From a virus: a DNA stretch of 44,051 nt. The stretch is from IMG/VR virus record IMGVR_UViG_3300033148_004205, positions 1 to 44,051 of that record; one strand, written 5' to 3'. This document shows positions 21,156-40,367 of the stretch, piece after piece. Position 1 is the first letter of the stretch. The number at the start of each line of letters is the position of its first letter. The notes below the pieces were generated by a model. That model did no database searches. It was not told the DNA's origin and was given only the letters and a program-made list of their open reading frames with translations. Made by a program: the position numbers and the translations under genes.

Positions 21156-22016
21156 CTACCTCTTCGATAGTTTGGCCCTCTTATTAACCTTTAATACCAT
21201 CCCATAATTATTAATTCCGCTCTTTAACTCCGCATCGTTTTTTAGTTGTAGCTTATTCCTTTTAAATGGCCGATAGTCAACCTGGTGTTGATAGCGGCCC
21301 CATTTTTTTGTTAGCTTAACTATATCAGGGTGTGCCCTCACTAATTCTTCTGCAAACTCCCGGCGGTTGTTTGTCTCTTTATAGTAGTTTGTCATCCCGC
21401 CTTTAACCTTCATCGTTGTTAATTTCCTGATAAGGAATGCATTAAAAAGAACTGTGCACCAGCCGCTTTTTAATACCCTAATACATAAATCCGTGTCATC
21501 GTTAAAGAAAAGGATATTCCTAAAAGGTTGTCCAGATTTGTCTTTCGCAAAGGTACGAATCAGCATATTTGAATATACGCGGGTATTAAAATATACAGGT
21601 GGTATTTTTATCTTTCGCGGAGCAAACATATAATAATGCATTCCAGCGATGGCTATATTTTTATATCGCAGCGTAAAGTCTTCGACCACGGCAAGGGGGG
21701 TTCCGTCACCACAAGGCACTTTCTGGTTCTTAGTGAGCCGATAAAGCCCTGTAATATTATCATCGAACGTCCAGAACCACTCGTAGCCTAGCTTGGCGGC
21801 ATGATCCCAGATTGCGTTTCGAGTTACCGACAATCCCTTGTCACGATGAGGGAGAATAATTATTCGTTTTTTGTCAACGTGTTTTGCGTATTGATCATAT
21901 TCTTGCTCTTCGATAAAGACCGTATAGGGAATATTAAGCCGGTCGAATAGCTTTATTGTTAACCGTGACTCATGCCGGCCTTTCGTTGGAATAAAAACGG
22001 GGAACCTCGGATTCAT
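21156..22016 (-). CDS. TAGT-type glycosyltransferase (TET/JBP-associated family)
   Basis: 286 residues. The N-terminal Rossmann-like GT-A features are VFIPTKGRHESRLT (7-20), TVFIEEQEYDQYAKH (32-46), KGLSVTRNAIWDHA (60-73) and a metal-binding FDDNI (84-88). Later come FFNDDTDLCIRVLKSGW (about 170-186), KLTTMKVKGG and a basic, lysine-rich C-terminus. These match the family described computationally by Iyer, Aravind and colleagues as sugar transferases for modified DNA bases in phages. No TET/JBP oxygenase or pyrimidine hydroxymethylase is visible here, so the acceptor is unknown. It is coupled (ATGA overlap) to the ParB-like gene. The region is AT-rich compared with the head genes. Family call from motif memory. 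Confidence 0.72.
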   Translation of the reverse strand: MNPRFPVFIPTKGRHESRLTIKLFDRLNIPYTVFIEEQEYDQYAKHVDKKRIIILPHRDKGLSVTRNAIWDHAAKLGYEWFWTFDDNITGLYRLTKNQKVPCGDGTPLAVVEDFTLRYKNIAIAGMHYYMFAPRKIKIPPVYFNTRVYSNMLIRTFAKDKSGQPFRNILFFNDDTDLCIRVLKSGWCTVLFNAFLIRKLTTMKVKGGMTNYYKETNNRREFAEELVRAHPDIVKLTKKWGRYQHQVDYRPFKRNKLQLKNDAELKSGINNYGMVLKVNKRAKLSKR

Positions 22017-22648
22017 TTATCCCCCTCGGCCGCCTCAACGTATACCTTATGGGCAACGCGGACAATTTCTGCCGGCGGAAACCATATCGACCGCGTATCT
22101 TCTGTAAGTGGTTGTTCAATAAGTTTCGAGAATGCTTCCAAGTCGCTTTTCTTAGCGAAGTGTACTGTTAATTGTTTCCAGCTTGTTAGATCCTTCTGGT
22201 CAAACTCTGGCATCCCGTCCCACTCTTTTTCAGGATCATTCTCCGGCCTATCCTTTGCCTGAAGTTGCCACTCCTCAAATCCATATTCTATTAAATCATC
22301 AAAATCGCAGTCACTCGCCAATAGCTCCCAATCCCAATCACCGGTGTTCCTGTTCGACCTGATGTTGTATTCGCGCACCTCTGCGGCCGTCAGCTTTCGA
22401 GACGGCACGCGCACATCAATCTTGTAGTTCGGCCGATGCAGGTGTGCCAGGACCTTAATCCGCTGGTGCCCGGCAATGAGCGTCCCGTTCGTATTGATGA
22501 CCGGCGGCTCCACGAGGTCAAACTTCTCGATAGACTTCTGCAGGTCGGCCCGCTGCTTATCAGACAGGGTGCGGGGATTCTTCGGCATTGGCGTCAGATC
22601 GCACAGTGCCCGCCGTTCCGTTTTCCACGATAGCTTTGCCTTGACCAT
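22013..22648 (-). CDS. ParB-like (ParB/Srx fold) protein
   Basis: 211 residues. The ParB N-terminal fold is clear: LCDLTPMPKNPRTLSDKQRA (15-34), LQKSIEKFDLVEPPVINTNG (36-55), then TLIAGHQRIKVLAHL (GHQR, the GxRR-like box) and AEVREYNIRSNRNTGDWDWE. The C-terminal extension (WKQLTVHFAKKSDLEAFSKL; TRSIWFPPAE) recurs in phage ParB-like proteins. In phages such proteins often neighbour DNA modification genes and may act as nucleases or ATP/CTP-using DNA-binding factors, not as plasmid partition proteins; no ParA is present. Translationally coupled to the TAGT gene. Confidence 0.85.
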   Translation of the reverse strand: MVKAKLSWKTERRALCDLTPMPKNPRTLSDKQRADLQKSIEKFDLVEPPVINTNGTLIAGHQRIKVLAHLHRPNYKIDVRVPSRKLTAAEVREYNIRSNRNTGDWDWELLASDCDFDDLIEYGFEEWQLQAKDRPENDPEKEWDGMPEFDQKDLTSWKQLTVHFAKKSDLEAFSKLIEQPLTEDTRSIWFPPAEIVRVAHKVYVEAAEGDK

Positions 22649-22654
22649 GTTGCC

Positions 22655-23371
22655 TCACCAAATCAAAACAGGCTGAACGTCAACCCCCGGCATGACAGGG
22701 ATCGACCACGTCACATCCGCGAAAGTTGCCGCCGGACAGCTCCCGAGAGCATGCCCCGTCGTTACGCTCACAAGCCGGATTGGCTCTCCGTTCTCGTCAA
22801 ACACCTGGTTGCCGTCCCCGTCGAGCAGCCACGACCACGAGGCGGCCGCGTAGTAGTAAACCACGCCCTTCTTGATTGCCCCGGCGTCGAAGAGGGTCTT
22901 GAGCGTTACGAGCCCGGCCCCGCCGCTAGCGACCTCATATTGCCACTCGGGCGGCGCGACCGCCCCGGTCAGCGCCTCCTCTATCTCGCTCGCGTAGATG
23001 AAGTAGCCATCGACCGGATCCGCCGGCGCATCCCATGACAGCTTCCCAAGGTTCAGGACGCCAGTCTGATAATCGTAAACGCCCTGACGCCATGTCCAAA
23101 CAACGGAGTATTGAACCGCACCAAAGGACATTTCGGAAGTCGACCATGTCTCCGCGTCTTTCTCGAGGACGGCCACGCGCTCGCTCCCCCTGAACACGAG
23201 GACGCGCTGGAAGTTGGGCATGGTGTGCTTGACCGTCCAGGTGAGCGTCACGCTTGCATGGTCAGCCTCGACGGTATAGGCAGCGTCCAGGTTTGAAATC
23301 AGGTCGTAGTCGGCGGCCACGAGCCCAGAGAGAGAGAGAGCAAAAAAGATCAATAGATGGACAGCCTTCAT
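22655..23371 (-). CDS. Secreted protein with Fn3-like domains
   Basis: Start placed at ATG 23371 (AAGGAGG six bases upstream). The 238-residue product opens with a signal peptide, MKAVHLLIFFALSLSGLVAA, with probable cleavage after VAA. The mature part has two beta-sandwich-like modules: ASVTLTWTVKHTMPNFQRVL...YSVVWTW, and KLSWDAPADPVDGYFIYASE, which has the W...P...Y.(I/V)Y signature of fibronectin type III. The signal-peptide codons contain a (CT)7 tract. A secreted phage-encoded protein outside the virion genes is unusual; it may act at the host envelope. Function unknown. Confidence 0.7.
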   Translation of the reverse strand: MKAVHLLIFFALSLSGLVAADYDLISNLDAAYTVEADHASVTLTWTVKHTMPNFQRVLVFRGSERVAVLEKDAETWSTSEMSFGAVQYSVVWTWRQGVYDYQTGVLNLGKLSWDAPADPVDGYFIYASEIEEALTGAVAPPEWQYEVASGGAGLVTLKTLFDAGAIKKGVVYYYAAASWSWLLDGDGNQVFDENGEPIRLVSVTTGHALGSCPAATFADVTWSIPVMPGVDVQPVLIW

Positions 23372-23381
23372 AGCAGCCTCC

Positions 23382-24125
23382 TTATCTTGCTGGCGCAACC
23401 TTTTCCATGAAGTCAACTACATACGGTCCCCAAGTGTCCTTCAGCCCGAAAGGGCCATGTATTGCCCCCTCGAGCGGGTGCAGCTCCGAGTAAACCCCGG
23501 CGGCCTGGGCCTGGCGGTTGATCTCGACCGCGCCGGCATAGGGGATACTAGCGTCCGCCGTCCCGTGGACGATGCAAACGGGCGGGTCTTTAGGCCGGAA
23601 GAAATTGATTCCTTCGTCGCTAATTATGTAGTGGTCGCTGGCAGATAGGATCCCCCACAAATCGATCATGCCGGCAATCTGCGGCTTGAGGAGGCAGGAC
23701 TGATAACCGCCAGGATCGGCAATGTCGGAATAGCAGGAGTGTAGCGAGATCATCGCCCCGCCCGAGCAGCCGCCGACGAAGATGCGCTCCGGGTCTACCC
23801 TAGCGGCCCCGGCGAAGCGGATAAATGACCGCCATATTTTTCGGGCCTCGAGGTGGACGTCGTCTAGGTAGGACCATCGCTCCGCCCAATCGGCCGGATA
23901 GTGCCCGAGCGTATAATACTCCATGTTGGCGACTACAACGCCGTGTAATGCAAACCAATTGCAGAGCTGAAGAATATTAGGATCATCTTTCCAGCCGTCA
24001 ACGTAAGAGCCCCCGTGCAAGAAGATGAGCAGCGGCAGCGTGCCCTCAGTGCAAGGATGAAAGATATCGTAGATTTCGTAATCCTCATTCCCATAGGACA
24101 GGTTCTGCCAATATCTGACCGTCAT
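23382..24125 (-). CDS. Alpha/beta-hydrolase fold esterase
   Basis: 247 residues, no signal peptide. The oxyanion loop is LIFLHGGSYVDGW (33-45, HGG). The nucleophile elbow is GGCSGG with Ser121. The acid is probably Asp191 in HGTADASIPY, and the base His223 in EGAIHGPF. This is a complete catalytic triad of the BD-FAE/CE-like esterase group, whose members remove acetyl or other acyl groups from carbohydrates. Between glycosyltransferases and a secreted protein it may edit acyl groups on a glycan or on precursors. It overlaps the zinc-ribbon gene as ATGA. Confidence 0.82.
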   Translation of the reverse strand: MTVRYWQNLSYGNEDYEIYDIFHPCTEGTLPLLIFLHGGSYVDGWKDDPNILQLCNWFALHGVVVANMEYYTLGHYPADWAERWSYLDDVHLEARKIWRSFIRFAGAARVDPERIFVGGCSGGAMISLHSCYSDIADPGGYQSCLLKPQIAGMIDLWGILSASDHYIISDEGINFFRPKDPPVCIVHGTADASIPYAGAVEINRQAQAAGVYSELHPLEGAIHGPFGLKDTWGPYVVDFMEKVAPAR

Positions 24126-24295
24126 GCTAGCGTCTCCTCAATGGGGCCGATAAACCGGCCGCGCATGTTGGTACACTTCGGGCACTGGAGGTAAAGAGCT
24201 CTGCACGTTTTCGGAACCATTGCAATCCAGATATAACTACATGTCGCGCACTTTGCATAGCCTTTGAAGTGGGGAACAAGGTTTTTACGATCCAT
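24122..24295 (-). CDS. Small zinc-ribbon protein (57 aa)
   Basis: A short gene from ATG 24295 (AAGGAAAT site) to TGA overlapping the esterase start. The product carries CATCSYIWIA and CRALYLQCPKC, i.e. C-x2-C...C-x2-C, a classic zinc ribbon, and ends FIGPIEETLA. It is coupled to the esterase. Such ribbons in phages often bind nucleic acid or partner proteins. Its place within the island is notable but no function can be assigned. Confidence 0.72.
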   Translation of the reverse strand: MDRKNLVPHFKGYAKCATCSYIWIAMVPKTCRALYLQCPKCTNMRGRFIGPIEETLA

Positions 24296-24300
24296 GTCTT

Positions 24301-25014
24301 TTATTTCCTTTTAGGCCCGCCGGGATTGCCACTGTACTCGAATGAGCCCGCCGTTCCGGTGAATTGCGCTTGATAGAACTCCTGCGGAAATCCCCAATAG
24401 GCAGCATATGTGATCTGCGGGACGTAGCGCCACTTTGCAGCCACTTGCATGAATCCGTCGATGACGTCCCAATCATGGCAGAGAACACATCGCCAGAGGG
24501 ATTCACGCGACGTCTCTTTAACGGACCGGTTGGCAATGCGCCGGGTGTGCATGAGAGCGTTCGTCCCGATGTGTAGCCGCACCGGGCTTTCCTTGCCCAC
24601 GACGCGTACCTCAAGGTCTCGCAACGAAATGAAGATGCCCCGGCTATAAGAGAAATCCGCCCCCTTGTCGGTTATGGGCTCGCGCAAAAAGCGGAGATGG
24701 TCAGGAAGCCAGAGGTCGTCATCGTCGAGGTAGGCAATAATCGGCTCTTCTGAAATATCGAATCCATGGTTTCGTGGGGCAACGCCTCGGATTCCCTTCT
24801 CACCGGAATGGTTTTCAGGCAGGTTGCACCATACTATCTTTCCGTCATGCTCATCTCGATATTCGGCTACAACCGCCTCCGTTTCATCGGTGCAGTGATC
24901 GCCGATGATATAGAGTTTCCAGTCTGTAAACGTCTGGCGCAATACAGACTCGATTGCCACTCTCAGGGAGTGGGGCCGGTGGAATGTGGGCGTGATGATT
25001 CCGATTTCTGCCAT
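24301..25014 (-). CDS. Glycosyltransferase family 2 (copy 1)
   Basis: 237 residues, GT-A fold: IGIITPTFHRPHSLRVAIES (4-23), then LYIIGDHCTDETE (34-46), and the nucleotide-sugar/metal site AYLDDDDLWLPDHL (about 94-107). A later WDVIDGFMQVA segment lies where the acceptor-binding base is found. The protein is soluble, without membrane segments. It is a paralogue of the next gene upstream, sharing GD-C-TDETE, SYSRGI/QYSRGI and a C-terminal VPQ/HITY-like stretch. The two overlap by 52 bases. It should transfer a sugar from a nucleotide donor; acceptor unknown. Confidence 0.85.
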   Translation of the reverse strand: MAEIGIITPTFHRPHSLRVAIESVLRQTFTDWKLYIIGDHCTDETEAVVAEYRDEHDGKIVWCNLPENHSGEKGIRGVAPRNHGFDISEEPIIAYLDDDDLWLPDHLRFLREPITDKGADFSYSRGIFISLRDLEVRVVGKESPVRLHIGTNALMHTRRIANRSVKETSRESLWRCVLCHDWDVIDGFMQVAAKWRYVPQITYAAYWGFPQEFYQAQFTGTAGSFEYSGNPGGPKRK

Positions 25015-25712
25015 GATCCGAAATACCTTTGTGGGTGATCCTGGTAAACTTCATAGGTTACGTGCGGGACATGCCGAACGATGCCGCCTAGTTTGATAAC
25101 GCGACGGACAAGATCCCAATCATATGCCTTGCTTCCAACCGCTCGAGTAGAGCGCCAGAGTTTCAGCGTCTTGCCCTTCACGCGCATAGCCATATCGCGG
25201 GAAATAACTATGGCGCTCGTATCGATGGTGTTCTCTCTGGGCCTGCTGTCGCCGATGACCTTCTTGACGTCGTGTTTGTTATAAAGTATCCCGCGTGAAT
25301 ATTGAAGATCGGCCCGTGGCACATCTTGATTGTCGAGCAGGTTTACGTGGGCTTGGAGGTGGTTTGAAAGCCAGATATTATCATCGTCGTTGAAGGCGAT
25401 GAACGGCTCCGATGACATCTCGAATCCGACGTTTTTAGCCGTCGCCCCGTTGTCTCCCGTTTTCCATCCGGTATGCCCGCCGCCGTGGTTGATGTCGAGA
25501 TTCTTCCAGTGAACGCGCATGTCCTTCCTCTGGAGTTCGCGCACCATCTCCTCTGTTTCATCGGTGCAACAGTCGCCGACAACGTAGAGTTGCAAGTCCG
25601 AATAGGTCTGCTCGAGGACGGATCGGATCGACCAGTAGAGAGAGGCCGGCCGATGGTAGGTTGATATGATGACACCGAAGATGGGATAGGAGCTGGCGGT
25701 TTCACTCACCAC
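24963..25712 (-). CDS. Glycosyltransferase family 2 (copy 2)
   Basis: 249 residues from GTG 25712 (GAGGGG site). Motifs: FGVIISTYHRPASLYWSIRS (12-31), LYVVGDCCTDETEEMV, and FIAFNDDDNIWLSNHL as the metal-binding site. The acceptor-side segment is KAYDWDLVRRVIKLGG. It looks like the result of a tandem duplication with copy 1, now well diverged. Coupled to the sulfotransferase gene upstream (11-base overlap). Soluble and therefore likely to act in the cytoplasm. Confidence 0.85.
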   Translation of the reverse strand: MVSETASSYPIFGVIISTYHRPASLYWSIRSVLEQTYSDLQLYVVGDCCTDETEEMVRELQRKDMRVHWKNLDINHGGGHTGWKTGDNGATAKNVGFEMSSEPFIAFNDDDNIWLSNHLQAHVNLLDNQDVPRADLQYSRGILYNKHDVKKVIGDSRPRENTIDTSAIVISRDMAMRVKGKTLKLWRSTRAVGSKAYDWDLVRRVIKLGGIVRHVPHVTYEVYQDHPQRYFGSWQKSESSRPHSTGPTP

Positions 25713-26409
25713 GATAAAGCCCCTCGAAATCTTTCGGCACGATGGAGTAGAAATACTCGAGGTCCTCTTCCGTAAAATGGGTTCGCCACTCGCCAGGGCG
25801 GGACTGCCAGTGCCAGCGGCCGCTTGGCTTCTCGGGCCGCTTCCACCTCTCCGGCCTGGGCAGGTCGTGATGAGCGGCTATCGCCTCCATAGTTTCATCA
25901 AAACGATAATATAAATCCTCGTACCTGATGCACAGGACCGGCTTTGCGGCAAGCCAGGCGGAGACGGACTTGTACCAGTGTTCGACCGGCGTTTGATACG
26001 GCTTGTCTATCCTGGCCCGCGGTGCCGCTTCCCAATTAATCCAATCGCGGATGTATCTCCCGAACGTTGCCGGCCGGGCAATGGGCCCTAGCTGTTCGCC
26101 GGGACGCCTGGCAGGAACGCCCACAAGATGAAACATCGGAGAGCGATACATGGAAACGAGAACGTCCCGGCCATCCCTGTAAATATATATCTGCCCGTCA
26201 CGCCTTGCTCTGGGCGTTGCCGGGTGCCCGCCGAAAAGGCCATAGTGCGCCAATCTGAACTTGCGATAGATTCCGTTTGCGTCCGGGTCGCACTGGTCGC
26301 GAGAGACGTCCATCTTCCCGCGATAGAAGTTTGTCTCGAGGCAGTCGCCGAGCCAGAAGTTTCCAGACCGAACGTGCCCGACGGTTTTAAGTTTCTTTAA
26401 TATCGGCAT
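25702..26409 (-). CDS. Sulfotransferase
   Basis: 235 residues, start at ATG 26409 after AGGGGGATCTT. PAPS-binding signatures are present: VGHVRSGNFWLGD (10-22) in the place of the PRSGTTW 5'-phosphosulfate loop, IYIYRDGRDVLVSMYRS (75-91) as the 3'-phosphate motif, LCIRYEDL, and RPGEWRTHFT (204-213), the usual C-terminal GxWxxxF-type box. A variant residue pattern in the first loop (SGNFW) is noted. The enzyme should move a sulfo group from PAPS to a hydroxyl, most likely on a sugar given that glycosyltransferases flank it on both sides. No PAPS synthesis gene is in the window, so the host must supply it. Confidence 0.85.
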   Translation of the reverse strand: MPILKKLKTVGHVRSGNFWLGDCLETNFYRGKMDVSRDQCDPDANGIYRKFRLAHYGLFGGHPATPRARRDGQIYIYRDGRDVLVSMYRSPMFHLVGVPARRPGEQLGPIARPATFGRYIRDWINWEAAPRARIDKPYQTPVEHWYKSVSAWLAAKPVLCIRYEDLYYRFDETMEAIAAHHDLPRPERWKRPEKPSGRWHWQSRPGEWRTHFTEEDLEYFYSIVPKDFEGLYRGE

Positions 26410-27127
26410 TTTCAAGATCCCCCTTTGACCACTTAGCTTCTGTCCTGTTGCCGCTTGCGCCCACTAGATGATGGATCTCGGATCTATGAGTGTGAACGAA
26501 CACCCATCCACGGGCGGCAGCGCGCTTGCAATATTCTACGTCTGACAATAGGTGGAAGTTACCTTCGTTGAGCAATCCCATTTCGTTGATTAGGTCGCGT
26601 TTGATATAGGCGCAACAGAACGGAAACCACTCCCTGAAATACATCAGCCCGCCTAGCTCCATCTCCTCGAGATGGTCAAGACACCTATTCTTTGCAAAAT
26701 GCTCGAGGGCGCAGTTACGATGTTTGAGCCGGCCGTTTTTGTATTTCAACTGCGGGCAGGCCAGGCCAACCTTCTTGTTTTTCGAGGGGGCATAGGCAGC
26801 GCGGCGCAACTCTTTCAGCCAGCCCGTCGCGCACAGGGTATCGCTATTGAGCAGGACAACGTCGTTCTCCCCCGCCTCCTGGATGATCTGGTTTGCCCCG
26901 GCCGTGAAGCCCAGGTTAGTTTCGTTAATGATCAGAGTGTCAACGTGCTCTTTGATAATGCCCGCCGGGATTTTAGAAAGGGAGTCATCACTGTTGACGA
27001 TCAAGATTATCTCGTTAGGCGCATCCGCGCATGCGGCCGCCGACACGATGGCAAGAGACGTTAGGCCTGGCGTGTTGTACTCAATGATACCGATTGACGT
27101 ACTTAATAAACTTTGCGAAGCGCTCAT
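26387..27127 (-). CDS. Glycosyltransferase family 2, rhamnosyltransferase-like
   Basis: 246 residues. Motifs: [20 protein letters not shown] (12-31), then INETNLGFTAGANQIIQEA and VVLLNSDTLCATGWLKEL, the NxGF..G.N and LNPD/LNSD boxes of rhamnosyl/galactosyl GT2 enzymes. GGLMYFREWFPFCCAYIKRD and LLSDVEYCKRAAARGW form the acceptor side with D-x-E/D. It differs clearly from the two paralogous GT2 genes. It overlaps both neighbours (23 and 47 bases). Confidence 0.83.
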   Translation of the reverse strand: MSASQSLLSTSIGIIEYNTPGLTSLAIVSAAACADAPNEIILIVNSDDSLSKIPAGIIKEHVDTLIINETNLGFTAGANQIIQEAGENDVVLLNSDTLCATGWLKELRRAAYAPSKNKKVGLACPQLKYKNGRLKHRNCALEHFAKNRCLDHLEEMELGGLMYFREWFPFCCAYIKRDLINEMGLLNEGNFHLLSDVEYCKRAAARGWVFVHTHRSEIHHLVGASGNRTEAKWSKGDLENADIKET

Positions 27128-27893
27128 AACCTGGCAGCCTTAATTCTACGACCTGGGTTGCTGATGGTTGCCCGTTGAAGTGATACACGACGAACGAGTC
27201 AGGGTCTATTTTGTCATTTCCGAACAGCCGGAGTTTCTTCTTTTTGTGCATCTCTGAATATTCGAATATGACTTTATAGATTACATGGAATGACTTGGGC
27301 CAGTAGTCGATGTGGCGATCTCGTTCGCTTTCCTCGAAGTGACGAGAAAATACAGCCTCGATGAATTCTTGATCGCCGTGGTGAATGGGGTTCCGACGGC
27401 ATATCTCAAAGCTAGACCATATTCTTGCGGCATATTCGGATCGGCGGTTGATATAAAACAGGCCAGTTGCAATCCGCTTTTCGTTCTTGCCCCAAGAGTG
27501 GGACGCCTGCAGGAATATCATCGGCCGCCTGCGGATGTCGATCAGCTCGAATATAGGCGACGGGTCATTGATGAACAGGGTATCAATATCGACGAAGAGG
27601 ATATCGTCCGGCAGGAGGTCTTTTCCGTAGGGTGAGAAGAAAAGCAGCTTGTTCCACCAGCCCTCGAGTTTTTTCTTGCCTGGGGTTCGGGCCTCTCTAA
27701 TGGCGCAAGGGTGATATAGCAGCGGGCCGGTCGGATAGAAACTAACGCGGGGAAATTCCTTGGTTGGCGGACTGATATTGTCGGTCAGCACGTTGATGTC
27801 AACGTGATACGGCTCGAGGGAATAGCAGAACATGGCAAAGTCACGCTTGGAATATTTATCGCCCGTCCAGACCGTCCATATTTCGCGTTTCAT
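27081..27893 (-). CDS. GT-A glycosyltransferase with DxD motif (GT8/GT32-like)
   Basis: 270 residues: [20 protein letters not shown] at the N-terminus, [20 protein letters not shown], then [14 protein letters not shown] (about 98-111), the DxD metal site, and a later [16 protein letters not shown] and [12 protein letters not shown]. The pattern resembles GT8/GT32-type retaining transferases, but I cannot fix the family. No membrane segment. It overlaps the GT2 gene by 47 bases, forming one compact cluster with it and the sulfotransferase. Confidence 0.72.
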
Positions 27894-27896
27894 TGC

Positions 27897-28511
27897 TCAT
27901 TCCTTCCCGGCCCTATGGCGGGCCTCCAGCCTCTTCTTGAATGTCTTCACCTGCCACCTGCGCTCGGCATCCCCGGCGGCATCCCCGGCGGCATCCCTGG
28001 CGGCAGCCCAGGCGGCATCCCTGGCGGCAGCCCAGGCGGCATCCCTGGCGGCAGCCCAGGCGGCAGCCCAGGCGGCATCCCAGGCGGCAGCCCTGGCGGC
28101 ATCCCCGGCGGCAGCCCTGGCGGCAGCCCAGGCGGCAGCCCAGGCGGCATCCCAGGCGGCGGCCAATTCCTCTTCGGTGGCCTTGCCGCGCGCGTACCGC
28201 CGGGCAACTTCGATGGCCTCGCGCGGCCGCTTGTCGCCTGGAAAAGCCTTCCCAAAAAACTTGAGAACATGCGCCGCGCAGTCGCAGGCAAAGAGTCGAG
28301 CCAGCTTGTCGCGCGTAGCCGCCTGGTCCTCCGGCACCGCTCTCAGCGACCACAGCGCGTCAGCGATGCCGTTGTGTTTGAGGAGTACCGCCAGCGGAAT
28401 CGGTTTATCCCGGCCGTACTTCTTGATGCCGCCGAGCGCCTCGGCGAGATACCGATAGCGGCCGGTGCAAGCCCCGGCTTTGTGTAATAGTGCAAACGTG
28501 GTTGATAACAT
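27897..28511 (-). CDS. Imm5-like protein with Ala/Trp repeat helix
   Basis: Start at ATG 28511 (GAGGAGGG site, TGATG overlap with the gene before). 204 residues. The N-terminal domain has [20 protein letters not shown], then [20 protein letters not shown] and [20 protein letters not shown], which match the Imm-5-like putative immunity domain found in phages and polymorphic toxin loci. From about residue 115 a long helix of [17 protein letters not shown]-type repeats follows, ending with a basic [12 protein letters not shown]. Its DNA is a tandem array and its length probably varies between strains. No toxin partner is seen. Function unknown. Confidence 0.72.
27970..28165. repeat. GC-rich tandem repeats in the Imm5-like gene
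   Basis: About 195 bases of 12-base units alternating GGCGGCATCCCT- and GGCGGCAGCCCA-like forms. They encode the Ala/Trp/Arg/Asp helix repeats. Units are multiples of three, so copy-number change keeps the frame. On the other strand they read as a Gly-Pro-rich frame, which is an artefact. Confidence 0.85.
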
Positions 28512-29209
28512 CACACACCCTCCTCTTTTTCAAACCGATTCGACCAGGGATAGACAGGAACGCTAATCGCGGAGTGGTATCCCATTTGAAACATATTGAC
28601 CCCCTTCCCGCGCAGCCACTCCGCCAGGCCGTTGAACTGGAGAATCCAATCGCGGAATCGATCCCTGTAGAAATCATCGAAAACGTCCTTGTGATGAGCG
28701 TTGCCGGAGTCGGCCCCCTCGATGTATTGGCAATCGCAACCAACTAGAACGATGGGGCGGCAGCCCATGAGATAGGCAATCTGGGCAGCCAGGAAGCCGG
28801 ACGATCCGTGGGCCAGATCGCACGAGGCTTTGTCTGGGGTGACGATGAAGCGGTTGGTGGTGGCGTCCCTGCGGGGAACATACTTGTATCCGTAGATCGG
28901 CCCCTTGTGCGCCTGCATGGCGTGTGTCTGGGGGACGGTTAGGCGCTTGTCCTTTGTGATGATAGGGCCGTGGAATATCTGGAACATGCGCTCAAGGACC
29001 GGGCCTCGAGGGTCGGCATCGTCCCGCCCGACCAGGTAGTGGGCGGCATGATATTGAGTGGCGAGATTGCAAGCGAAGGTGATTCCGCCGGCCTGCAGGA
29101 TCTTCTCAACGTCGAAGAACTTTTTAGAATAGCCATTGCCGAACACGAACGCGGGCAGGCCAACGTGGATATTCCGAAGGTTCTTTAGTGGGGCTAGCGC
29201 GGCGGTCAT
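28511..29209 (-). CDS. GT42/DUF115-like putative glycosyltransferase
   Basis: Start at ATG 29209, overlapping the stop of the hydrolase gene; an upstream in-frame start would overlap further. 232 residues. AFVFGNGYSKKFFDVEKILQ (about 20-39) and ITFACNLAT resemble the G-N-G-x-S and F-x-C-N motifs of CstII-type sialyltransferases (GT42) and DUF115/MAF proteins. Later GSSGFLAAQIAYLMGCRPIV and LVGCDCQYIEG fit the second Rossmann half. The likely role is sugar transfer from a nucleotide donor. Exact family not certain. Confidence 0.6.
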   Translation of the reverse strand: MTAALAPLKNLRNIHVGLPAFVFGNGYSKKFFDVEKILQAGGITFACNLATQYHAAHYLVGRDDADPRGPVLERMFQIFHGPIITKDKRLTVPQTHAMQAHKGPIYGYKYVPRRDATTNRFIVTPDKASCDLAHGSSGFLAAQIAYLMGCRPIVLVGCDCQYIEGADSGNAHHKDVFDDFYRDRFRDWILQFNGLAEWLRGKGVNMFQMGYHSAISVPVYPWSNRFEKEEGV

Positions 29210-30441
29210 ATAGTGGCATCCTGCACTTTGGTATATTTGATATATCCTGTATCCTTGAAATCGTCGTTCGGATCCCACTCGAACTCAAGAGCGGTCCCGT
29301 CGTGATAGTAGATCCTGCCAAGAGATGCGCCCTTAGCCATCTCGATCTTTTCCATGCCGGCAAGTTTCACCGCCATCGCCGCGTAGCTTTGAGCTTGATA
29401 GAGGGGATATAGTTTTCGGATGCCAACCGGGCCGGCAGACCACTCGCACAGGCGCATGCGGCCGAAGATGGGATGGTGGCCGCCGGAAACGAGGTTCCAG
29501 TAGAAAACATATTCAGCCTTGCATAGATCAGACAGAAGGATGACGGTCCGCTGAAAAACGTCGCGAAGGTGGACGGATTCATGGAGGGCAATTAGGCTCG
29601 GGTCCTTGGACATGAACATCTTCAGGGTATCGGGAACGCTCCGAAGGCTATTCGGATATTGCGCCCGGTATTTCGAAAACAGGGGGTGTTCTCGAGGGTC
29701 CGGGCCGCCGTACTCGGTGCAGATCATCGGGACGTCTGATTTTCCGCAACTCTCTAACTCCGCCCGGAACCACTGGAATTTTATCGGCAGCTCATACTTG
29801 TTTTGGTATCCCCGACAATCGCAATAGTCGAACGGGGAATGCTCGATAACCGTCTTGAAAAACTTGGCATAGGCCGGAGTTCCCTTGGAGAAATGCCCGG
29901 CACAGTTGACGCCGACGATCTTGACATCGGGATTTACATCCTTAGCGGCCGAGTAGAGAAGCGAATAGAGATCGCAATATTCATCAGCCCTATCGGACGG
30001 CCAATGGATCGCAGATGAAGCCGGCTCCGTATTGCACTGCAGGAAGGTCACGCGGCCGTTACATCGATCCACAACCGCTCTGACCATCGCCGTGAACTTA
30101 TCCCGATAGTTGACGTGCACGAGCGACCCCTTAGCTCTTTTTGCGCTCGTGTAAATGGGATGGTCGGTAAACAGGTTGACAAGGGCAACATCGCCGGGGG
30201 CAATCTGTTCTAGGAAGCGGTCGAGTAGATGCCAATCGAAAGGGTCCGGCAGCGTCTTTCGGCCGACCGGCTCAAGGCTCGACCACGAGAGCGATATTTT
30301 CGACCCATGCCCGCCGAGCTCTCGGATGGTCGGCATAAACGTCTCGCCGAGATATTTCTCACCGTAGGCGATGGCGAGTGGGGCCTTCGGCCCGCCCTTC
30401 CTCGGAAACAGCTTCCTCAACGTCCGTCCAATCACTGACAT
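29206..30441 (-). CDS. Clan GH-A-like glycoside hydrolase
   Basis: 411 residues, AAGGAGGATTAAT site. TIM-barrel features: ISLSWSSLEPVGRKTLPDPF (49-68, W..(I/L)EP), FLQCNTEPAS with Glu139 as likely acid/base, and MICTEYGG with Glu243 as likely nucleophile. The spacing and strand context (beta-4 and beta-7) agree with GH5/GH39/GH42-type enzymes; the canonical NE is here NTE. No signal peptide, so it acts in the cytoplasm or on lysis. It may trim the glycan made by its neighbours or attack a host polysaccharide. It opens the island in transcription order. Confidence 0.7.
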   Translation of the reverse strand: MSVIGRTLRKLFPRKGGPKAPLAIAYGEKYLGETFMPTIRELGGHGSKISLSWSSLEPVGRKTLPDPFDWHLLDRFLEQIAPGDVALVNLFTDHPIYTSAKRAKGSLVHVNYRDKFTAMVRAVVDRCNGRVTFLQCNTEPASSAIHWPSDRADEYCDLYSLLYSAAKDVNPDVKIVGVNCAGHFSKGTPAYAKFFKTVIEHSPFDYCDCRGYQNKYELPIKFQWFRAELESCGKSDVPMICTEYGGPDPREHPLFSKYRAQYPNSLRSVPDTLKMFMSKDPSLIALHESVHLRDVFQRTVILLSDLCKAEYVFYWNLVSGGHHPIFGRMRLCEWSAGPVGIRKLYPLYQAQSYAAMAVKLAGMEKIEMAKGASLGRIYYHDGTALEFEWDPNDDFKDTGYIKYTKVQDATI

Positions 30442-33221: not shown

Positions 33222-34457
33222 TTAGGTTTTGATCTCACCATCCTCGATTATCACATGGCACCCTTCATCCTTGCCGACGATCTCGGCCAGGACAAGCGCC
33301 CCTTCCCTTGTCGCCACATCTTCCAGGGCCGCCATTGACTGGTCATCGAGCAGACTCGCGTTACGGATTATCAGCACCTTGAGTTCCGGGTTACTACGGA
33401 AAGCCGTTGCCGCCACGATCTCGACCCACTCGGAACTTGACGCCTGGTTGAGAGGCCGCCCGTTGTAGGTCACCATCCCGTCTCGGTAGCCCATACCTGG
33501 GATGGGAAAGCTAGTCGTGGAAAGGACGTGCTCTTTCTCTGCGTCGATATCGGCGATGTGCTTCGATAGCCCGTCCGCCTCGATTTCCTTGTTGAGCATT
33601 TCGAGTTCAATTTTTGCGGCCTCGGCGTTTGCCCGTACCCTAGTGTTTGTTTCCTCGGCATTAGCAACCTCGGCGCGCAAGGCCCCCGTGTCGATCTTGC
33701 TTTTACCCTGAAGAGATGTGGTTTGCATAGCGATGAAATGTTCAGAGCCATCTATCTCGGCTTGAATCCGCGCAATTTCTTCGCGTCTTTTTGCTATGTC
33801 TAATTTTGTTCGTTCGATTTCATATTCTACAGCCTCGATTTCCTGGTTGTGCCTGTCGGCCTCGTCTATCTCTCCCATTATTTCCCCGATGCGGATTATG
33901 TCTGCAGGCGCATCGGCATAGGCTGGGGCACTGTCGAGACGCGCTTTCAGGCCCTTAACATCGCCGTTGACGCCCGTACGCTGTTTGAAAAGAAGCGCCC
34001 GTTTTTCCTCGAGTTCCGTGAAGTCAATTCCGGCCACCTTGCGGATTGTTTCCGATATCTCGCCCTCTCCCATCTTCAACACGGCGTCGAAGTCGATCCA
34101 CGCCTTGCCGGTTAGACGTTCGACAATCTCCGCCGGGCGCTTGAGTGTTTTTGTGATTCCCTTCTCGCCCTTTTCCTCGATGACGAGTTCGCTCTTGCCA
34201 TCGGGCTTTATCTTCCTGGTTAGGATGAATCCGTTATCCAGCTCGCCGATGACGATGCCCTCCTTAGCGTCGCCGTGAACAGGCTCTTTGCACTGGCTCG
34301 CCTTCCCGCTCAAGAGGTAGACCATCGCATCGCAGAGCGATGATTTTCCCTGGGCGTTCCGGCCGCCGATCTTGAGCACGTTTATGCCTGACAGGTCAAT
34401 ATCAACACGCTTGAGGCGCTTGATGTTCAGCGCCTGGAACCGTAGAAAGTTTGTCAT
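33222..34457 (-). CDS. SMC/RecF/SbcC-like ATPase
   Basis: 411 residues, AAGGAGG site. N-terminal FLRFQALNIKRLKRVDIDLS and NVLKIGGRNAQGKSSLCDAM (27-46, Walker A GRNAQGKSS), then LTRKIKPDGKSELVIEEKGE. A charged coiled coil spans about 130-300 (RHNQEIEAVEYEIERTKLDI). A compact head returns with PLNQASSSEWVEIVAATAFR (signature-like) and LKVLIIRNASLLDDQSM (Walker B-like, degenerate). It is shorter than SbcC. Such phage ATPases accompany Bet/RecT and nucleases and are thought to act in recombination. No partner nuclease gene lies directly next to it except the DUF1064-type one nearby. Confidence 0.82.
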   Translation of the reverse strand: MTNFLRFQALNIKRLKRVDIDLSGINVLKIGGRNAQGKSSLCDAMVYLLSGKASQCKEPVHGDAKEGIVIGELDNGFILTRKIKPDGKSELVIEEKGEKGITKTLKRPAEIVERLTGKAWIDFDAVLKMGEGEISETIRKVAGIDFTELEEKRALLFKQRTGVNGDVKGLKARLDSAPAYADAPADIIRIGEIMGEIDEADRHNQEIEAVEYEIERTKLDIAKRREEIARIQAEIDGSEHFIAMQTTSLQGKSKIDTGALRAEVANAEETNTRVRANAEAAKIELEMLNKEIEADGLSKHIADIDAEKEHVLSTTSFPIPGMGYRDGMVTYNGRPLNQASSSEWVEIVAATAFRSNPELKVLIIRNASLLDDQSMAALEDVATREGALVLAEIVGKDEGCHVIIEDGEIKT

Positions 34458-36025: not shown

Positions 36026-36198
36026 CACTCGCCCTCCTTGCCGGTCTCTCGTGGGTCTATCAAAGCGTCGATTGTCGGGCAGTTCCCATTCTCTGATGCA
36101 TAAAGAATGGCATAGCGCAACTCAACCCACTGTGATTCAGACGGATTGCCGCTTTGAAATAATTTTTGCACTTTATCCATGTAAATAGTGATATTCAT
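36025..36198 (-). CDS. Small hypothetical protein (57 aa)
   Basis: 57 residues from ATG 36198, in TGATG overlap at both ends. MNITIYMDKVQKLFQSGNPS and WVELRYAILYASENG suggest a helical protein. It ends RETGKEGE, the junction motif. Ribosome site AAGGAGGG lies in the previous gene's last codons. Unrecognised. Confidence 0.6.
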   Translation of the reverse strand: MNITIYMDKVQKLFQSGNPSESQWVELRYAILYASENGNCPTIDALIDPRETGKEGE

Positions 36199-36569
36199 CA
36201 CTTGCCCTCCTTCCCGGTGAGGATGTATTTAATATCTGTCAACGCAAAGTCGATTTGAATACACTCGATTTCTTGACATGATGTTTCGGGGGTAACGTTT
36301 ATTTTCTCTACCGCCCGGCCGATGCGGTGTTTGTAGTCTGCGATAAAACCTTTGTAAACCGCCACGTCTAACGGCATTGGGCAACGCTCTTTTATGGTTT
36401 CAAGGGCATTTTTCAGGGCCGCGTTTGTGACAAGTATCTCCTTCTCCGCCTCCTCCACCATCTCGAGGAGGGCGGTTATCTGCCGGTCTTCCTTGGTCGG
36501 ATTGTAAGTACCAATCTCGGCGAGATTGTACGCGTTACGGTTTTCTGCTTTAATTTCGTTAATGTCCAT
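36198..36569 (-). CDS. Paralogous small protein family, copy C (123 aa)
   Basis: 123 residues, MDINEIKAENRNAYNLAEIG, then ITALLEMVEEAEKEI, YKHRIGRAVEKIN and the C-terminus YILTGKEGK. Shares with copies A and B an N-terminal (N/K)-EI(K/R)A start, a LxxMVEE helix, an R(I)(D/G)xAVE helix and the LTGKEG end. Probably a helical, dimeric protein. Function unknown. Confidence 0.65.
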   Translation of the reverse strand: MDINEIKAENRNAYNLAEIGTYNPTKEDRQITALLEMVEEAEKEILVTNAALKNALETIKERCPMPLDVAVYKGFIADYKHRIGRAVEKINVTPETSCQEIECIQIDFALTDIKYILTGKEGK

Positions 36570-36940
36570 CATCTACCCTCCTTGCCGGTGAGTTCCCTCA
36601 ACGTGCGGCATATATCACAGTTTATCCATTGGCAGTATTTAGTATGATTATCACCAGTTGTTAAGTGTCCTTGTCCTATTTCCACCGCCAAGTCGATGCG
36701 GGATTGAAGACGGCGCTTATATTTTTTCTCCATTGCCGTCTTGCTTTCCGCGCCCATAATATCGCGGGTAAGATTGAGGACTTCTTGGTCCCGCTCCTCC
36801 ACCATCTCGATGAGGGTGACGCGGTCGAGACATGCTTCCTCTGCTATTTTAGATCGTTCCTTTTCCGTGTATTTCTCCCAGTCTTTATCGGCGCTTCTTA
36901 GTGCATCCCGCCGCGCCCTAATTTCGTCGAGCTTGTTCAT
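36569..36940 (-). CDS. Paralogous small protein family, copy B (123 aa)
   Basis: 123 residues from ATG 36940 in a TGATG junction. MNKLDEIRARRDALRSADKD, VTLIEMVEERDQEVLNL, YKRRLQSRIDLAVEIG and RTLRELTGKEGR. The centre of the C-terminal half has CQWINCDIC, a possible metal site absent from copy C. Coupled at both ends. Confidence 0.65.
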   Translation of the reverse strand: MNKLDEIRARRDALRSADKDWEKYTEKERSKIAEEACLDRVTLIEMVEERDQEVLNLTRDIMGAESKTAMEKKYKRRLQSRIDLAVEIGQGHLTTGDNHTKYCQWINCDICRTLRELTGKEGR

Positions 36941-37173
36941 CACTTGCCCTCCTCGCCGGTAAAATAGCTTTCTGGAAAATCACCCCGGAACGTGCAATTA
37001 AAGCCTGGTTGGTCGAAGTGGACCTCCGCTGCCCGCGCAACACCTGCCAAGCTACGGAGGCGGACTTTGGGCCTCGCGCCGATAAACCGAATAACCCGCC
37101 TTGCATAAACCCTGACGCCGCCCTGCTGGCGCTTGAAGACGACGGTCTCACCGGGCATGAGGATGTCGGTCAT
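36940..37173 (-). CDS. Small beta-rich hypothetical protein (77 aa)
   Basis: Start at ATG 37173 (GGAGG seven bases upstream, ATGA overlap with the radical SAM gene); a longer frame exists but lacks a site. MTDILMPGETVVFKRQQGGV and VRRVIRFIGARPKVRL-type strands make it look like a small beta-barrel (perhaps KOW- or hypermodification-adaptor-like). Ends FTGEEGK, the junction motif. Unrecognised. Confidence 0.6.
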   Translation of the reverse strand: MTDILMPGETVVFKRQQGGVRVYARRVIRFIGARPKVRLRSLAGVARAAEVHFDQPGFNCTFRGDFPESYFTGEEGK

Positions 37174-37976
37174 TTGCGGGCCTCCGAACTTCGATATGCG
37201 GCGGGCCTTGCCCATTTCCGTTGTAGCGCCCGCCAGGGCCGATCTGGTGCGGTATTCGCCGAGTCGCGATACAACATCGCGAACGGCAGAAACCCCATTT
37301 TATAAACGCGCTCAAGGCGGCGCTCGGCGGCGGCCAGGGTGTCGCTGCCATGTCCGATCAGGACGAAACACCGCTTCTTTTCGATTGACACCCCCGCCAT
37401 GACCGTGGCTACTTTTTCAAGGTGCCGCTCGGCCCCCGGGTAGTCACAGGCAAACCACGCCTCGTTCAGACTGATTCCCTCAAGAAGCCGCATGTGCCAT
37501 TCGTCGAACAGGCGCGCATCCAGGCCGCCAGAGAATACCGCGCCCTTCGATTGCCGCCCGAGCATGGCGAAGACGGCCTCGATGTGCCGCCTTGAGCAGG
37601 CGAGCAGGTTGTTATCGAAGATGTTCCAGCCATCCTCGATTGGCAATTCGCGGATACCGCCCTCGCGCTCCGGGACGAAGCAGAAGGCACACTTGCGAAT
37701 ACAGCCGCGCGATGTAATTACGGCCCCTTCTTTTAAAAACGCGCCAGGGACAAAAAGCCCACCGGAATGATCAAGTGCCGGTCCGCCGATCTCGACGTGC
37801 GAATAGAAGCGCCCCCATGACTCGGCAAGGCGCCGCGCCTCGTAAATATCCCAAGTAAAGGCAACGGAGATCATGACGCGCAGGTCTTCACGAGGCCGGA
37901 ATAATGGCGGGTCGCCAACAAACGCGAGGGCGTCGCCCGGCGTCCATTTTGTTCTACGCGGAAAAACTCGGATCAC
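37170..37976 (-). CDS. Radical SAM protein
   Basis: 268 residues from GTG 37976 with GAGGAGGCGAGGGA upstream; the same frame is open earlier without a site. The iron-sulfur motif is SRGCIRKCAFCF: Cys92, Cys96 and Cys99 (C-x3-C-x2-C). After it come ELPIEDGWNIFDNNLLACSR, FSGGLDARLFDEWH and FVLIGHGSDTLAAAERRL, giving a partial TIM barrel. The N-terminal part has VEIGGPALDHSG. This family recurs in phage genomes near recombination genes; its reaction is unknown. Because the genome also has TAGT and ParB-like genes, nucleotide or base modification is one possibility. Confidence 0.82.
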   Translation of the reverse strand: MIRVFPRRTKWTPGDALAFVGDPPLFRPREDLRVMISVAFTWDIYEARRLAESWGRFYSHVEIGGPALDHSGGLFVPGAFLKEGAVITSRGCIRKCAFCFVPEREGGIRELPIEDGWNIFDNNLLACSRRHIEAVFAMLGRQSKGAVFSGGLDARLFDEWHMRLLEGISLNEAWFACDYPGAERHLEKVATVMAGVSIEKKRCFVLIGHGSDTLAAAERRLERVYKMGFLPFAMLYRDSANTAPDRPWRALQRKWARPAAYRSSEARK

Positions 37977-38502
37977 TCCCTCGCCTCCTCGTCGCCCTTC
38001 CCGTCGCAGTCCGGGTACTGGCAATAAAACTGCGGCTCGACGCACCCGCACCCGGCGGTTTGTCATACTTGCAGAGGTCCGCCCCATGACATTCTTCCGC
38101 GACATCACATCGAGCCACGCCCTCCTTGCCGGTGAGGAACTTAACGCCGCTTCTGATTTTTTCGAACACTTTCGAATCCGTCGGCAGACCGCAACCATCT
38201 GCCAATAGAATTTTAAAATGTTCCACTGCTCGGTCGATGCGGGATTGGAGGGTGCCAGAACAATGTTGAGCCCATGCCCACCCGGAACCGTATGTATCGT
38301 GCTTAAACTCGGCCGGTTCGGAATCGACTGGCTCGCCACGGTCAAATGCCAAATGACCCGCGTTAAATTCGTCCACCTCCTCCGCGCTCTCCTCCACCAT
38401 CTTGATGAGGGCGTTTATTTTTTTAAAGACTATCTCTCTTGGGATTGGTCCGTGTTTGTACCATGCTTTTTTCCACGCTTTGATTTCGTCGAGCTTGTTC
38501 AT
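37973..38502 (-). pseudogene. Paralogue copy A fused to Cys-rich tail, frame broken
   Basis: From ATG 38502: MNKLDEIKAWKKAWYKHGPI, LIKMVEESAEEVDEF, LQSRIDRAVEHFK and FLTGKEG, as in copies B and C. Here no stop follows; the frame reads on into RCDVAEECHGADLCKYDKPP. It then turns into Arg/Ser-rich noise (stop at 37954). Shifting -1 near 38048 restores a cysteine pattern, GCGCVEPQFYCQYPDCDGKG, ending EEARE with TGA overlapping the radical SAM GTG. That overlap supports the shifted frame as the original one. Either a frameshift mutation, a base-call error in a G/C run or programmed slippage explains it. Confidence 0.55.
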
Positions 38503-38798
38503 CACTCGTCTCCTGCTAGCTCTGGATACCACGTCAGGCAGTTTGATCCAACCACTTGGCACCGCCGCGCCTCTCCGTTTTTCACAAGCCCGCCATCGCG
38601 CAACTCGGGAAGCCGGCGAGACGGAGCGTGCCGCTCGAGCCCCGTCATCCTGGCAATCTCAGCGGCCGTGTGCCCTGGGCACATACTGACCGCCAGAAGG
38701 CAGACCCGCCGCTGTTTCGAAGCGGACCCGTCCCACTCAACTCCGCTGGCGGCCTCGTGGGATGTCTCGGGATCCGTTCGTCTTGCTCGTGCTTTCAT
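38502..38798 (-). CDS. Winged-helix DNA-binding protein (phage wHTH)
   Basis: 98 residues, TAGGAGGCGGTC site. RRTDPETSHEAASGVEW, then QRRVCLLAVSMCPGHTAAEI, ARMTGLERHAPSRRLPELRD and GGLVKNGEARRCQVVGSNCL TW-like end: the R.TDP.TSH...Ta.Eia..tgl....rRLpeL pattern of small phage winged-helix proteins. Likely a regulator of early genes. TGATG overlap with copy A. Confidence 0.8.
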   Translation of the reverse strand: MKARARRTDPETSHEAASGVEWDGSASKQRRVCLLAVSMCPGHTAAEIARMTGLERHAPSRRLPELRDGGLVKNGEARRCQVVGSNCLTWYPELAGDE

Positions 38799-39209: not shown

Positions 39210-40367
39210 TCAGATAGGGCACTCTTCGTCGGGCAGGCCGTCCGGGTCTATAAACGCTTCATCTTCTTGGCCTGGCCCCTGACTGTCGATCTTCTTGATG
39301 TGCTCCTGAATCTGTTCCTTGAAATAGACCACGGCCGCGAATTGATCCTTCCGGTTGTCCGGCGTCGGGTATTTTTTCGGCTCTCCGGCCGCCGTCGTAT
39401 CGGAGTAAAACCATGCGGCCGCGTCTTTCGGGATGTCGATCAGAAGATAATCGCCGTACTTCTTGCCCCACGTACATCTCTCCGTCCACGGGTTGCGCCG
39501 GCATTCATCGACGATCTCCGCCAACCACTCGTTCCCGGGCCACTTAGGGTCAAAATAGTGGTAGTTAATTGACCCATCGTCCTTGATGGCGCATGTTGGT
39601 TGCTGATCCTGGCCCGCGCTCGCCGTCGTCACCGTCCCGCCTACCTTCTCCGCGATCCCCGCAGCCGCCGCCCTGGCTACATCGCCCATCTTGTCCGCAG
39701 TGGCCCTGGTTGCCATACCGGCGGATTTCCTTTCGGCAATCGCAAAATAAGCCGGCGGCCGGGCGGGCTCAGGGCTCGAATCCGCGTCCGCCTGGCCCAT
39801 CTCCTCTGACGTATAGACGCAGGAGAGTTCTTGCGGGAATGCCTTCCGAAGCGCAAGCGCCTCGGCACACTTTCCAAGCATAAGGAACGGCATCTTGTTC
39901 CAAATAGGGCTTGTAGAGATATAGTATTCAGACCATCGAGCCGATGCGGAGAACGGGACCCGCTCGGCATTGACGATCTTGTAAACCGTCGCCGTTGCCT
40001 TCGTCGGCCGCTCCGCCCCGGGGCCCCCCGTGTGGACATAATCATCATTCCCGGCGTAAAGGCCAGTCCTGTCGGCCGTCAGGCGATAGCCGTCGATATT
40101 TGTTTGGAAAGCCACCTCCTCCCGCTGCTTTTTTTTGTTTCACCTCTTGACATAATAAATTTGCCGCGAGAACGGATCAAGTTTTGTCCGGTTGATGTGG
40201 ATCAAGTAAAGGCCGAATTCGTCATCAGATAGGTCGTCGGCTATTGTTCTACGAAGGAGTGTTATCTGTTCATTGGATAGCCCCCCGTCTATTGATCTCC
40301 CTGCGTCCCCCTCGTGGGCCGGCCGATGCGTGACTCCCGCCTCTGGTTTGCTCGCGCTCTTAACCAT
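39210..40367 (-). CDS. bet: Bet/RecT-type recombinase interrupted by an in-frame UGA
   Basis: From ATG 40367 (AAAGGAAGTG site): ADDLSDDEFGLYLIHINRTK, LDPFSRQIYYVKR, then TGA (40140-40142). The same frame continues NKKKQREEVAFQTNIDGYRL, TADRTGLYAG and MLGKCAEALALRKAFPQELS to a stop at 39210. Together these make an ordinary Bet protein: in the family the residue after I-Y-x-x-K-R is normally Trp, here UGA. A GTG at 40115 could start the second part, but its GGGAGGAG lies directly against it. The C-terminus ends GLPDEECPI after an acidic stretch. Role: single-strand annealing recombination. The break may be a mutation, readthrough point or assembly error. Confidence 0.8.

Follow-up and report, generated by a model that had tools for sequence, protein, structure and literature searches.

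How does a phage come to carry a stop codon within the core of its recombinase gene, and is the stop there for use or by accident? The question is raised by a RecT/Bet single-strand annealing protein gene in a virus record of IMG/VR, which was analysed over its full length of 44,051 bases (the window). The gene is encoded on the minus strand, a point on which an earlier note on this DNA was silent, and its translation from the ATG at 40367 to the terminal TGA at 39210 gave 386 codons with a single internal stop. This stop is the TGA at 40142-40140, codon 76; it is preceded by RQIYYVKR and followed by NKKKQREEV, and past it 309 further codons are open in the same frame. When the record was searched with PF03837, the gene was the sole RecT match (E 3e-23), covering positions 3-194 of the 198 in the profile with the one TGA inside, and its score of 77.2 bits, against a curated cut-off of 24 bits, places it in the family. 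It was also matched by phrog_2449 and phrog_2780. The two halves searched separately gave colinear PF03837 matches (profile 3-48 and 58-194), and the description in the earlier note, of two Bet halves in the same frame parted only by a TGA right after IYYVKR, was thus borne out. The homology to RecT/Bet holds, whereas a functional RecT cannot be claimed; the uninterrupted frame expected of a PF03837 member is broken at codon 76.

To what codon the TGA corresponds was read from the relatives. A search of phage records returned only distant RecT matches (40% identity or less), and a search of viral contigs returned 80 RecT loci, the best of them (L013) being 57% identical; a near-identical contig was searched for and none was found. 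The sole match among genome contigs (L012) is to a short peptide and was rejected as due to chance. L013, the closest relative found, is uninterrupted and carries KRWDSQSQREVM at the stop site; its alignment there (VKRWDSQSQREVMTIQTGIDGYR) places Trp at the site with the frame continuous. The segment from the VKR-type strand to the IQTGIDG strand differs in length among relatives, and the residue at the site depends on which relatives are compared. It was Trp in 20 of the 24 loci having the hairpin length of the window (F in two, T and K in one each, a stop in none), and in an alignment of 40 relatives of mixed lengths it was G in 12, W in 11, K in 8 and other residues in the rest. The Trp had been called conserved; judged from these alignments, it is typical of one hairpin-length class, and conservation across the family is absent.

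All viral contigs were further scanned for TGA or TGG followed by D or N, nine free codons and IQTGIDG. TGG gave 60 matches, all 60 with RecT-type flanks, and TGA at the site gave none; the pattern leaves out the RecT of the window itself, which reads FQTNIDG there. Likewise, none of the 80 related virus records had a stop inside its RecT profile match, and both counts are to be read with the proviso that the scans may omit records very near the window, i.e. copies from the same species. The core of the window RecT is split by an in-frame UGA that is absent from all the relatives examined. A substitution at a Trp-type codon is the simplest account of this, because YYVKR before the stop and N with KKKQRE after it stand in register with the relatives, and their uninterrupted frames with Trp lend good support to the one-base TGG-to-TGA change that had been proposed. 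We thus consider that this is very probably an ordinary RecT/Bet gene in which one substitution made a sense codon, likeliest Trp, into UGA, by recent mutation or by an error of the consensus. Some points limit this reading: the base is read from the consensus of one copy of the phage, the search for further defects in the record found none, and a downstream frame left intact is what useful readthrough would lead one to expect as well.

The quality of the record and the state of the gene were then considered. Stops with coding sequence in the same frame on either side were sought by codon usage, in a scan that placed the Bet site just below threshold and yielded five tandem same-frame gene pairs; since a start codon lies downstream of each stop, these are gene junctions, in contrast to the Bet stop, the one site without a proper restart. 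The large terminase gene showed no interruption, nor did those other matched genes that were checked; the check covered genes with known relatives, which many genes of the window lack. As no further defect was seen in the record, nothing independent points to a sequence of poor quality. The window RecT agrees with the family at 60 of 68 conserved columns, and the eight deviations fall on both sides of the stop. At near-invariant columns it deviates in 6 of 56, towards the high end of the 0-10 seen in intact relatives, and no further stop or frameshift was found within the gene. Because the deviations lie within the range of intact relatives and no other stop or frameshift accompanies them, an old pseudogene is unlikely.

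An AlphaFold2 model of the read-through protein, built from an alignment with 40 relatives, showed a confident core over residues 31-180 (block pLDDT about 88-98), in which the beta1-beta2 hairpin, the helices and the antiparallel sheet of a Redbeta/RAD52-like core were present. A search of the PDB by sequence gave no match; searched by the model, the top match was the N-terminal domain of lambda Redbeta (7ujl, E 2.2e-6, TM by target 0.63), which the modelled core resembles. The modelled strands 70-77 and 82-89 pair as a hairpin, with residue 76 close to where the first of them ends. The beta1-beta2 hairpin of Listeria RecT inserts as a wedge between base pairs, and its tip touches the outer strand (PMC9772228). 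By fold order, the modelled hairpin would correspond to this DNA wedge, and the stop site would lie near its tip. The upstream ORF (40140-40367, 75 aa; phrog_2780, E 9.7e-11) has an AAGGAAG Shine-Dalgarno-like sequence 7 nt upstream of its ATG, and it encodes the N-terminal helices together with the greater part of the first hairpin strand. Such a fragment should not anneal DNA and is presumed inactive, because the second strand of the hairpin and the rest of the core are missing.

Could the stop be bypassed by some special decoding? That TGA is read as Trp by the phage or its host, in the manner of code 4, is a reading that fits the position of the codon; it is extremely unlikely, and an alternative code is ruled out by the genes that end at TGA. 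This triplet terminates 20 of the 44 long ORFs of the window, the RecT gene included, where 221 TGG codons also occur; no other in-gene TGA was found, and a tRNA gene search of the window found none. The genetic code of the window is standard, in agreement with the earlier note, and the features expected of TGA-to-Trp recoding were not found. The stop-recoding phages, e.g. the code 15 crAss-like phages (PMC9523058), likewise have an in-frame stop inside a phage gene; in the window, unlike in those phages, a single gene is affected, TGA is a normal terminator and no suppressor tRNA was found. A bypass through selenocysteine, or through slippage of the transcript or two frameshifts at the run of eight A residues that lies just past the TGA (A8, 40128-40135), is just as hard to credit. 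The closeness of the run and the overlap of a GTG with the TGA as GTGA might be taken in its favour. Against selenocysteine, no relative has Cys at the site, and neither a notable hairpin of the SECIS kind after the UGA nor any Rfam match in the window was found, so a selenoprotein was rejected. Slippage would require two opposite shifts, since the frame and the alignment register are equal on both sides, and frameshifting at the A8 run is thereby ruled out. The run need not be invoked, as had been said before, because the frame is unchanged across the TGA; it explains nothing that needs explaining.

The other alternatives that the earlier note had raised found less favour than the substitution. 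In programmed readthrough, the stop would cap how much full-length recombinase is made, and the rate at which tRNA-Trp inserts Trp would be tuned. The 309 open codons after the UGA are consistent with this, near-cognate tRNA-Trp would restore the residue of the relatives, and in all three species that were assayed UGA leaked more than UAG (PMC9481147). The same source stands against it as well, as native leakage depends on the host and goes down to 0.04%. Moreover, the stop is conserved in no relative, as seen in the counts given above, and no notable RNA structure was found near or 3′ of the UGA (z 0.81 to -0.56), so that a stimulatory fold is also wanting, as is a suppressor tRNA in the window. 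Programmed readthrough is therefore unsupported and very unlikely, and slightly less likely still is that the UGA acts as a lineage-specific dose limiter, which would yield mostly truncated Bet and, through misreading by tRNA-Trp at the residue thus restored, a little full-length protein in an amount that depends on the host. It is very unlikely that a two-piece recombinase is assembled from the N-terminal 75 aa and a second piece of 301 aa begun at a possible GTG restart (39210-40115; PF03837, E 6e-11). The break does fall near the end of beta1, in a hairpin with a loop of variable length, and the GTG at 40115 is in frame 24 nt downstream of the TGA. However, GGAGG stands just 2 nt before this GTG, a poorly spaced ribosome site, and the product would have neither the N-terminal lobe nor the first of the two strands of the DNA-wedge hairpin; the cut parts these strands from each other, and a two-gene arrangement, which was looked for, occurs in no relative.

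The reading that we favour remains a one-base substitution in a sense codon, likeliest the Trp codon of the closest relatives. The stop would then have one of two origins: a recent nonsense mutation truly present in the sampled phage or in a part of its population, or an error of the metagenome consensus. If it is genuine, most ribosomes would terminate once 75 residues had been made, still within the first strand of the wedge hairpin, leaving a fragment that should be inactive; misreading of the UGA by near-cognate host tRNA-Trp may insert Trp and give some full-length protein. Phage annealing recombinases are often dispensable under laboratory conditions, and a null recT allele is therefore plausible. 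In one assay, misreading of UGA, ascribed to tRNA-Trp, stood at about 12% for E. coli and at 0.04-0.08% for two species of Pseudomonas (PMC9481147); the leakage rate is strongly host dependent. With ordinary leaky UGA nonsense mutations the gene shares a single in-frame UGA at a Trp-type codon and the lack of accompanying signals; it differs from the known ones in that its base comes from a consensus and its leakiness is conjectural. We judge the finding to be ordinary.

The neighbourhood of the gene was also surveyed. No exonuclease partner was recognised adjoining the window RecT, whereas one is present in several annotated relatives. A gene for a radical SAM domain protein (37170-37976, phrog_9298) with a CxxxCxxC motif lies about 1.2 kb downstream of the window RecT; as listed, its ORF is over-extended at the start, and the start is probably an internal GTG near 37976. 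The overlapping ORFs 37170-38345 and 37954-38562 had been a candidate for a second damaged gene; a frameshift was rejected there, and they are two adjacent genes. Two neighbouring 124-aa genes at 36198-36943 show weak mutual similarity (29% identity), and an SbcC-like/AAA_23 ATPase gene of 411 aa (33222-34457) is matched by phrog_1499 over its entire length. Between the terminase and the replication genes, about a dozen minus-strand genes (21156-30441), mostly of 200-290 aa, include several with glycosyltransferase-type, sialyltransferase-like and esterase-like matches (phrog_842, 22739, 1962, 4603, 3341). Two adjoining glycosyltransferase-like genes among them (24301-25712), 37% identical over 223 residues, are probably a tandem duplication.

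The stop in the RecT gene is of little importance beyond annotation. Gene callers will divide the window RecT into two ORFs, and the record deserves a flag to say that a nonsense substitution, or else an error of the consensus, is probable in this gene. Were the stop maintained for a purpose, the phage would be a rare example of one that adjusts the dose of its recombinase through stop-codon leakage.
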